Origin: Bacteroidota bacterium
Lineage (GTDB): Bacteria; Bacteroidota; Ignavibacteria; Ignavibacteriales; Ignavibacteriaceae
Assembly: GCA_021813585.1 (NCBI GenBank)
Contig: JAKAJV010000067.1
Coordinates: forward strand, 1 to 55,455
Length of the DNA stretch: 55,455 bases
Direction: 5' to 3'
Part shown: piece after piece, positions 18,399-21,502 of the stretch
Layout: each line of letters opens with the position of its first letter
How positions within the stretch are numbered: position 1 is the stretch's first letter
Translations under genes and position numbers: made by a program
Notes under the pieces: generated by a model
What the model saw: only the letters and a program-made list of their open reading frames with translations
Told to the model about the DNA's origin: nothing
Database searches by the model: none

Positions 18399-18463
18399 TT
18401 CTTTCTCGATATTTTATTATCACATTTTTTATTCCAATGCAGATTATTCAAGATTATTATTTA

Positions 18464-18606
18464 CTCATGTTACGCAAAATTATAAAGCTTGAGTGTCATA
18501 CCCGCGAAAGCGGGTATCCAAGATGCGAAAATATGATAAAAAATGGATTCCCACTTTCGTGGGAATGACAATGCGGACATCAAAATGTATTCCTGCGTAA
18601 CATGAG
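18464..18606 (+). repeat. Complete 143 bp hairpin repeat between kdpA and kdpB
   Basis: The only full copy in the window. Ends are perfect inverted repeats ACTCATGTTACGC/GCGTAACATGAGT (counting one outer base), flanked by a direct repeat TTATTTA at 18457-18463 and 18607-18613 that looks like a 7 bp target duplication. Inside are two hairpins in opposite sense, ACCCGC-GAAA-GCGGGT and TTCCCAC-TTTC-GTGGGAA, an arrangement like REP/BIME units. The two other copies are at the contig ends and match it exactly over their length. No coding capacity. Confidence 0.93.
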
Positions 18607-18631
18607 TTATTTAATAAATCTCTTTTGATTT

Positions 18632-18729
18632 CTCTGTGGTTCTCGGTGCCTGCTCGGTGGAACTCTGTGTAATTTTTTAAAATATATGTAACACTGAGAA
18701 CCACGGAGGAAACACAGAGTTCCACCGAG
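18632..18729. repeat. Interleaved inverted repeat upstream of kdpB
   Basis: Two arm pairs are interleaved rather than nested. CTCTGTGGTTCTCGGTG (18632) pairs with CACTGAGAACCACGGAG (18692) with two mismatches. CTCGGTGGAACTCTGTGT (18653-18670) pairs perfectly with 18712-18729. An RNA could form one or the other stem, or a pseudoknot. It sits directly beside the 143 bp repeat, in the 360 bp gap of the kdp operon. Similar CTCTGTGG-type sequences are widespread intergenic repeats in this group. Confidence 0.8.
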
Positions 18730-18758
18730 TTGTTTCAACTTCTTATGACATGTTGAAC

Positions 18759-20462: not shown

Positions 20463-20540
20463 TTAAAATTTCTCAGGTTTAATTAATACATAAAGAAGGT
20501 ATAAACCGATAAGAATGCTGATGATCAACAAAACAACCAT
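20463..20540 (-). CDS. kdpF: Potassium-transporting ATPase subunit F
   Basis: A 25-residue single-helix peptide starting MVVLLIISILIGLYLL and ending KPEKF. It lies 9 bp upstream of kdpA with a strong AAGGAG site 6 nt before ATG. Size, hydrophobicity, the C-terminal Lys-Pro-Glu-Lys-Phe and position match KdpF, the small lipid-like stabiliser of the KdpABC complex. It is too short for ordinary gene calling. Confidence 0.93.
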   Translation of the reverse strand: MVVLLIISILIGLYLLYVLIKPEKF

Positions 20541-20551
20541 TTCTTTCTCCT

Positions 20552-20635
20552 TCAAAGACTATCAAAAAAATCAATTGACTTAAAAGTTATCCAGAACAGC
20601 AGCGCACTTAGCAGTATCATCAAGAAAGTTATCAT
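20552..20635 (-). CDS. Micro-protein upstream of kdpF, single transmembrane helix
   Basis: A 27-residue frame with a hydrophobic N-terminal helix (MITFLMILLSALLFW) and a polar tail FKSIDFFDSL. GAGGAA lies about 8 nt before its ATG, and its stop codon TGA merges into the AAGGAG site of kdpF, which suggests translational coupling. It resembles KdpF in size and topology but lacks the KPEKF tail. It could be a second KdpF-like subunit, a leader peptide or a distinct accessory peptide. I believe similar short peptides occur before kdpF in Bacteroidota, but that needs a search. Confidence 0.65.
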   Translation of the reverse strand: MITFLMILLSALLFWITFKSIDFFDSL

Positions 20636-20932: not shown

Positions 20933-21502
20933 ATGAGCTGGTACGATAAAATATTAAAAGGTAAGCCGGGTGATGAAGAACCTTCTTTCAGGATTGAAGA
21001 GAATGCAAATCTAAAGTGGATTGCCAATCAAACTGTAATCAACTGCTACCAATTGATTGAAGACCACCGGATAATAGGTTCATTAGTCTTTACTAAGAAT
21101 TCAAGACGGATTGCCGACGGCAAGGTCTACGGATTGGAATTCATAATTAAGAGCCATTGGTTTTTTAGAAATAAAATATTAATTCAACAGTCCGGCAGCT
21201 TAAAAAAGTGTACGATGATAATTACCGACTTACATAAAAGCGGCATGATCGAGTTCGGAAATAAAGAGTGCTTATTTTGGAACTGCCTTAACTGTCTGGA
21301 ACACGAATGGGCATTTTCAAATAAAAGGAATAGAAAATTGATTGTCTTTAAACCGGTTACTTCGTTTTATAAATCGGGTTACTTTGTTAAAATCAAAAGC
21401 AAAGAGTTTGACAAACTTTCTTTAGCAGTTCTGCTTCTGATTGGAATTTACAATCTCTTAAACTTAAAAGAAGATGTGGGAATAACCTCTGCATTTTTTT
21501 AG
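20933..21502 (+). CDS. Uncharacterised protein between kdp and its regulator
   Basis: A 189-residue protein not recognised as a named family. The first ~150 residues alternate hydrophobic and polar residues with conserved-looking Trp/Gly turns (IIGSLVF, GLEFIIKSHWFFR, SGMIEFGNKECLFW, EHEWAF). A hydrophobic helix LAVLLLIGIYNLLNL is near the C-terminus. This layout is reminiscent of tubby-like/LURP-one beta-barrels with a buried C-terminal helix, but that is only a shape argument. It is divergent from kdp, convergent with the NtrC-type regulator, and preceded by a candidate sigma-54 promoter, so a role in the same potassium or osmotic response is possible. Confidence 0.7.
   Translation: MSWYDKILKGKPGDEEPSFRIEENANLKWIANQTVINCYQLIEDHRIIGSLVFTKNSRRIADGKVYGLEFIIKSHWFFRNKILIQQSGSLKKCTMIITDLHKSGMIEFGNKECLFWNCLNCLEHEWAFSNKRNRKLIVFKPVTSFYKSGYFVKIKSKEFDKLSLAVLLLIGIYNLLNLKEDVGITSAFF

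Follow-up and report, generated by a model that had tools for sequence, protein, structure and literature searches.

The window analysed here, a stretch of 55,455 nt that makes up one entire contig of a 4.54-Mb assembly, carries on its minus strand the genes for Kdp, a high-affinity K+ pump and an odd P-type ATPase (Table 1). Immediately ahead of kdpF, and in addition to it, lies a 27-codon frame encoding a hydrophobic product, which we call X. The earlier note described this frame as having its own ribosome site and a TGA that merges into the AAGGAG of kdpF, and the coordinates confirm both points, as the final A of the stop codon (20552) is also the first A of the kdpF ribosome site. The NtrC-type response regulator encoded upstream is the probable activator of kdp. 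No micro-ORF of the X kind was found in the kdpB-kdpC gap of the window. The kdpA-kdpB gap (18399-18758), with its 360 nt and palindromic repeats (GTCATTCCCACG... and ...CGCGGGTATGACA), is odd for the interior of an operon.

Table 1. Features of the kdp region in the window.
Feature	Coordinates	Strand	Details
NtrC-type sigma54-dependent response regulator	22895-21558	minus, upstream of kdp	PF00158, PF00072, PF02954
ORF between X and the NtrC-type regulator	20933-21502	plus	no family assigned
Sigma70-like site, alternative promoter	20740-20711	minus	such sites no commoner than in shuffles
Sigma54-like element, TGGCAT-N4-ATGGA	20700-20686	minus, upstream of X	one base off the strict motif
Shine-Dalgarno of X, GAGGA	20648-20644	minus	8 nt before the X ATG
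Gene X	20635-20552	minus	ATG 20635, TGA 20554-20552; 27 residues, MITFLMILLSALLFWITFKSIDFFDSL
kdpF ribosome site, AAGGAG	20552-20547	minus	6 nt before the kdpF ATG at 20540
kdpF	20540-20463, including stop	minus	25 residues, MVVLLIISILIGLYLLYVLIKPEKF; Potass_KdpF, E=7.2e-8 (Pfam PF09604) and 1.2e-6 (NCBIfam TIGR02115)
kdpA	20453-18759	minus	TIGR00680, 619.9 bits
kdpB	18398-16356	minus	TIGR01497, 1021.9 bits
kdpC	16203-15556	minus	TIGR00681, PF02669
KdpD-like Usp protein without kinase domain	15514-14360	minus	best NF038185 (338 bits, below the model cut-off of 550), PF02702
Separate HAMP-PAS histidine kinase	14379-12541	minus	PF00512, PF02518

X is a genuine protein-coding gene, and purifying selection acts on it. 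We ran the codon-substitution test suggested in the earlier note, in which the observed substitutions are reshuffled within the peptide gene and the amino-acid changes compared with expectation, and coding bias was found, the X frame being depleted of amino-acid changes in most pairs. For the five loci of the window's group, fewer changes than expected were seen in 10/10 pairs (p 0 to 0.046; for example, 1 vs 5.2 and 6 vs 10.3), none of the shifted frames was significantly depleted (lowest p 0.28), and the variable columns were distributed 8/4/18 over codon positions 1/2/3. Four more Bacteroidota groups gave the same direction, with some pairs not significant (L007-L008, p=0.24; L008-L009, 0.08; L073-L068, 0.13; L075-L074, 0.14), as did five Rhizobium loci and one Sinorhizobium fredii comparison, again with exceptions (L157-L210, p=0.66; L157-L213, 0.52; L210-L213, 0.25); one shifted frame was itself depleted in the rhizobial pairs L157-L213 (1 vs 4.6) and L210-L213 (2 vs 5.1). 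When one pair from each of six clades was combined, the pairs being chosen by us post hoc and zero of 2000 being entered as 1/2000, there were 30 amino-acid changes vs 58.4 expected (Fisher combined p ~3e-10). KdpF, the positive control of the test, is more strongly conserved than X.

The X gene is also tied to the transporter genes across genomes. A hydrophobic ATG-started ORF of 18-60 codons, ending -12 to +60 nt from the kdpF start, was present in 99/136 kdp loci, and the same scan found one in 126/2720 dinucleotide shuffles of those upstream stretches and, one ORF further upstream, in 16/98 cases, some of which are the third peptide described below. The 136 loci exclude ten without a detected kdpF, among which L161 has an annotated kdpF missed by the model and L129 a kdpF seen by eye; the 99 include L166, whose hydrophobic ATG ORF 46 nt before kdpF we judged to be chance. 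Set aside before any counting were 13 duplicate loci, L138, L153 and L154 (without KdpA), and L015, L026, L029 and L092 (too little upstream sequence).

Profile searches for FKSIDFFDSL-type peptides upstream of kdpF, another check put forward in the earlier note, found the frame conserved. Both the X sequence and an X profile (91 candidates, all scored) find only the window site in the host genome. All 16 non-redundant relatives with upstream sequence and a KdpA 55-93% identical to that of the window have a pre-kdpF peptide whose end resembles FKSIDFFDSL, least so in L010, L012 and L013; in eight relatives whose KdpA is 41-45% identical, kdpF is present without X, while L025 and L028 (37-39% identical) have a peptide ending ACEKI. 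The FKSIDFFDSL-type peptide recurs elsewhere in the phylum, conservation being greatest at the C-terminal end, most commonly in the form F-K-S-[IV]-x-[FWY]-F-[DE]-K-[IL]. An X profile built from 13 seeds scored at least 15 bits in 55/134 non-redundant loci, all 13 seeds being among the 55, and the best score on the antisense strand of those stretches was 7.9 bits. With a 14-row profile and every first-look candidate scored, 59 relatives gave 14 matches at E<=0.01; 13 lie just upstream of kdpA, each at E 2e-7 or better, and the 14th (E=0.0016) lies inside a long frame in a genome without a KdpA match.

Applied to 392 genomes of the phylum, the same 14-row profile gave 44 matches at E<=1e-5. All 44/44 are found ahead of kdpA and on its strand, with 43 at 114-271 nt from the KdpA match and one at 918 nt; seven of these 44 genomes had contributed rows to the alignment and 37 had not. 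Since at most 21 first-look candidates were scored per genome in this search, copies of X elsewhere could be missed. Of 14 weaker matches (E 1e-5 to 0.01), four precede kdpA (G230, G341, G357 and G248) and ten lie elsewhere, and the latter we take as noise. KdpA was detected in 113/392 genomes (112 above the cut-off); as both searches list the same handles, they seem to cover the same draw of 392. The X profile misses copies that are found by position in G020, G040 and G044.

Small hydrophobic ORFs do appear randomly, as the 126/2720 shuffles attest, and X might be such a chance frame without a product. Given the codon-position bias, the frame-specific depletion of amino-acid changes and the linkage to kdpA, we regard this as hardly credible, and the codon test together with the genome searches led us to rule it out. 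That X represents a genuine protein family, overlooked until now and tied to Kdp, is near certain. Neighbouring genes are easily inherited together, however, and so co-occurrence alone is no proof that X contacts the pump.

The inheritance of X was followed on a KdpA tree (124 rows, FastTree, local supports), with type labels that we assigned by location and C-terminal end. Of the 59 rows in the KdpA clade of the window, 53 carry X (50 type I and 3 type IV); five of the remaining rows lack X by the scan and one lacks both X and a detected kdpF. One of those five, G377 (L215), has a displaced X, with 744 nt and a pair of ORFs (119 and 125 codons) between it and kdpF, and counting this copy brings the clade to 54/59. 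The type I label requires 7 changes on the tree vs 39.3 when labels are shuffled, and all type labels together require 23 vs 62.6, near-copies inflating both contrasts. No X was accepted in a 17-row KdpA clade that includes two members of the window's own genus; the TTG- or GTG-started hydrophobic ORFs at that position in L018, L019 and L049 were judged to be chance. In the X-less KdpA clade, KdpF has 31 residues and starts MES or MET in 8/14 rows with a detected kdpF (L016-L019, L022, L024, L051 and L052), compared with 25-26 residues where a type I X is present.

X matches no model in NCBIfam or Pfam up to E=1, the KdpF model included, and of nine further X-like peptides not one attained the cut-off of a family; below-cut-off matches of other X-like peptides, for instance to a PsbT model (E=0.0037; 17 bits, cut-off 55), were taken as chance. 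KdpF resembles X in being hydrophobic, in its length of about 25-30 residues, in its place immediately before kdpA and in its basic C-terminal end. X could accordingly be pictured as a diverged second copy of KdpF, at the same site or repeating it, a picture helped by equal size, the same probable topology, adjacency and a profile-profile probability of 47.8% between type I X and KdpF, although that last figure illustrates how hard short hydrophobic peptides are to separate by profiles. Against it, X has no KdpF-model match, on which ground it was rejected as a KdpF paralogue; X and kdpF are both kept, side by side; type II X reaches only 3.8% with KdpF; and the C-terminal ends differ ([FWY]F-[DE]-K-[IL] vs PEKF). 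The X of the window ends FFDSL, not in the KdpF-type PE[KR]F, and type I peptides end mostly in [FWY]F-[DEN]-x-[ILM]. We therefore consider a copy of KdpF highly improbable.

The earlier note had left a choice between a new Kdp subunit and a leader peptide that couples translation. X and kdpF overlap by 4 nt in 14/99 loci and are 0-5 nt apart in 38 more, and the 4-nt overlaps make translational coupling of the two likely. X could then be a leader cistron, whose translation rather than product opens the kdpF ribosome site and couples kdp expression to translation, as both this spacing and the TGA/AAGGAG overlap in the window would suit. However, the amino-acid sequence of X is selected and conserved across the phylum rather than free to drift, and the gap to kdpF is variable, being 43 nt for the type I X of L090 and as much as 744 nt, with two ORFs, in G377. 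The mRNA region also folds less well than its shuffled versions (z +1.74; 95/100 shuffles fold at least as well), and no terminator-like site, Rfam match or attenuator was found. An RNA attenuator was rejected, there being no downstream terminator or other RNA structure. Given that X clusters on the KdpA tree, that it persists apart from kdpF and that RNA structure is absent, we hold a mere leader peptide to be a slim prospect. Of the two alternatives in the earlier note, selection, the linkage to kdpA and G377 favour the subunit, and coupling is unlikely to be the whole function of X.

The sigma54-like element upstream of X may be the promoter of the operon. A strict sigma54 motif, in a pattern that was fixed after the upstream sequences had been inspected, precedes X in 13/62 related loci vs 0.13 expected from shuffles, with 0 on the other strand. 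The window and L216 have a gene for an NtrC-type response regulator upstream of kdp, and L215 shows the C-terminal end of one. In this phylum kdp may thus be under sigma54 control; the text of a published sigma54-regulon study contains neither 'kdp' nor 'potassium'. On the basis of the element before it, X is probably the first gene of the transcript. X could also be a regulatory peptide on the sensor side that signals the state of the pump or membrane to the KdpD-like protein or the histidine kinase: it heads the operon, in some loci after a sigma54-like element, and its synthesis would begin once the operon is on. Control of a sensor kinase by a small membrane protein has precedents, such as MgrB, which acts on PhoQ. 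The clustering of X with KdpA clades speaks weakly against a sensor-side role, and we give such a role a minor but real chance.

In our view X is a membrane micro-protein that is translated, has a single helix and most likely serves as an accessory subunit of Kdp, the first in the order X-F-A-B-C and co-translated with KdpF, and we put the probability of this reading at about 0.68. The selection on its residues, its linkage and its survival at a distance from kdpF all point towards a product that acts together with the pump. The coding status and the linkage are established computationally; insertion into the membrane, binding and function are predictions from sequence, and the hydropathy of X (>1.6 in a 15-residue window) is the value by which the scan itself selected. 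In our model, the hydrophobic stretch of X would cross the membrane, leaving the N-terminus on the outside and the basic C-terminal end on the inside, like KdpF; we propose this N-out/C-in topology from the basic residue on the C-terminal side and the uncharged N-terminus, following the positive-inside rule. The helix would pack beside KdpA or KdpB on the lipid-facing side of the complex, with the FF-[DE]-K-[IL] end at the cytoplasmic membrane surface, and X may stabilise the complex or tune its conformational cycle, as has been said of KdpF in E. coli; work by Gassel in 1999 reportedly identified KdpF as a subunit with a stabilising effect on the E. coli complex in vitro. The close spacing between the X stop and the kdpF start could keep both peptides at matched amounts.

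Two tiny single-helix accessory subunits on one membrane enzyme have a precedent in CydX and CydH of cytochrome bd, which were discovered late; theirs is a different enzyme, and we claim no sequence relation to X. Phospholamban and sarcolipin, single-helix peptides on P-type (P2A) ATPases according to a review (PMC10654040), differ from X in being animal proteins that are not operon-encoded, and again we claim no homology.

We also looked for X-like peptides in a cross-phylum sample of 28 named records, comprising 21 chosen by hand for breadth (out of 60 listed from 465 plasmid records), E. coli, and six further rhizobial records added for the codon test. A similarly sized hydrophobic peptide lies beside kdpF in 20/28, one of type I (Phocaeicola) and 19 of type II, the latter from Deinococcus, Allomeiothermus, Acidithiobacillus, Burkholderia, Azospirillum, three Sinorhizobium, five Rhizobium, Shinella, Acetobacter, Thalassospira, Paracoccus, Mycetohabitans and a comamonad. 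Many type II peptides end C-[DE]-[RK]-[LI], with deviants such as ALSRL, LIDRS and GCARI, and in Burkholderia and Allomeiothermus the peptide follows kdpF instead of preceding it; for some type II and III peptides the start or the order was set by hand (including L129, L130, L134, L140, L148 and L150). No peptide was accepted among these records in E. coli, Klebsiella, Ideonella, Synechocystis, Trichormus, Halobacterium, Lactiplantibacillus and Tsukamurella. In Bacillota a peptide was present in 5/13 loci and not found in 8/13. The chemistry of the pump does not require X, given that none was found in E. coli, in Klebsiella, in those eight Bacillota loci and in some operons of Bacteroidota.

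Types I and II share position, size and probable topology, and their profiles align with an hhalign probability of 67.7%, the KdpF control reaching 47.8% with type I; homology between the type II peptides and the X of the window is thus at most suggestive. A tblastn search with one type II peptide against the plasmids gave a single irrelevant match (E=6). An annotated gene covers the peptide in two records, that of Sinorhizobium alkalisoli (an 81-residue hypothetical protein) and that of Mycetohabitans, several others carrying few or no annotations. The Mycetohabitans endofungorum product, WP_212667346.1 (L162, 669-773), is a 34-residue hydrophobic peptide with GCDKL, encoded just upstream of kdpF; its name, 'potassium ABC transporter ATPase', looks automatic and wrong, no function is attached to it, and its homology to the X of the window is only suggestive. 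Type III (f27, often ending FHIGG) gives 4.0% against type I and 12.6% against type II in profile-profile comparison, and we therefore treat it as a positional counterpart only. In 12 f27 loci (L104, L107-L109, L111-L113, L115-L117, L119 and L122) the position of X is occupied by another peptide, for example MNVYHHLYFGILIFLILAGAAGLIGFIFHIGG, which in 9/12 lies one base before kdpF, and the f27 loci L118 and L121 have what look like shortened versions of it.

X may be ancient across phyla. It would then be shared by Bacteroidota, rhizobia, Burkholderiales, Deinococcota and part of the Bacillota, and Kdp in the bacterial ancestor would have had five subunits, X-F-A-B-C, with X later lost by E. 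coli and its kin, an idea that we put forward tentatively and at somewhat under even odds. E. coli and Klebsiella adjoin three Burkholderiales rows on the KdpA tree, two of which have a type II peptide, and this position fits a loss of X if type II is homologous.

The earlier note placed two mini-membrane peptides before kdpA outside the standard description of Kdp, and this agrees with the open literature searched: the pump has four subunits, KdpA, KdpB, KdpC and KdpF, in a review (PMC10654040), and a second Kdp-operon micro-protein goes unmentioned in the abstracts and passages of open papers that the search covered. In our copy of the PDB sequences, KdpA matches three sequences only (25 entries), each identical to the KdpA of E. 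coli K-12 or one residue off, and no X was found in E. coli K-12. X is often missed by gene finders. Should X prove to be a subunit in most Bacteroidota and in many bacteria besides, KdpFABC would be an incomplete picture of their pump, and expression constructs that start at kdpF would miss a part. If the ancestral pump did have five subunits, the E. coli structures and biochemistry would describe a reduced pump, with X the part missing from them, a stabiliser or brake acting on the KdpA-KdpB cycle.

Five f28 genomes (L054, L055, L061, L064 and L065) have, upstream of X and overlapping it by 4 nt, a third micro-ORF whose product combines a basic N-terminal end with a single hydrophobic stretch (for example, MTISRKTFKKREHSTFSLLIVSYVLFTLLTLIIKI); none was seen in the window. 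Similar-looking ORFs occur in L056, L077 and L085 and, between kdpF and kdpA, in L073 and L075. In the f28 genomes this third frame has fewer amino-acid changes than expected, with p<0.05 in 7/10 pairs.
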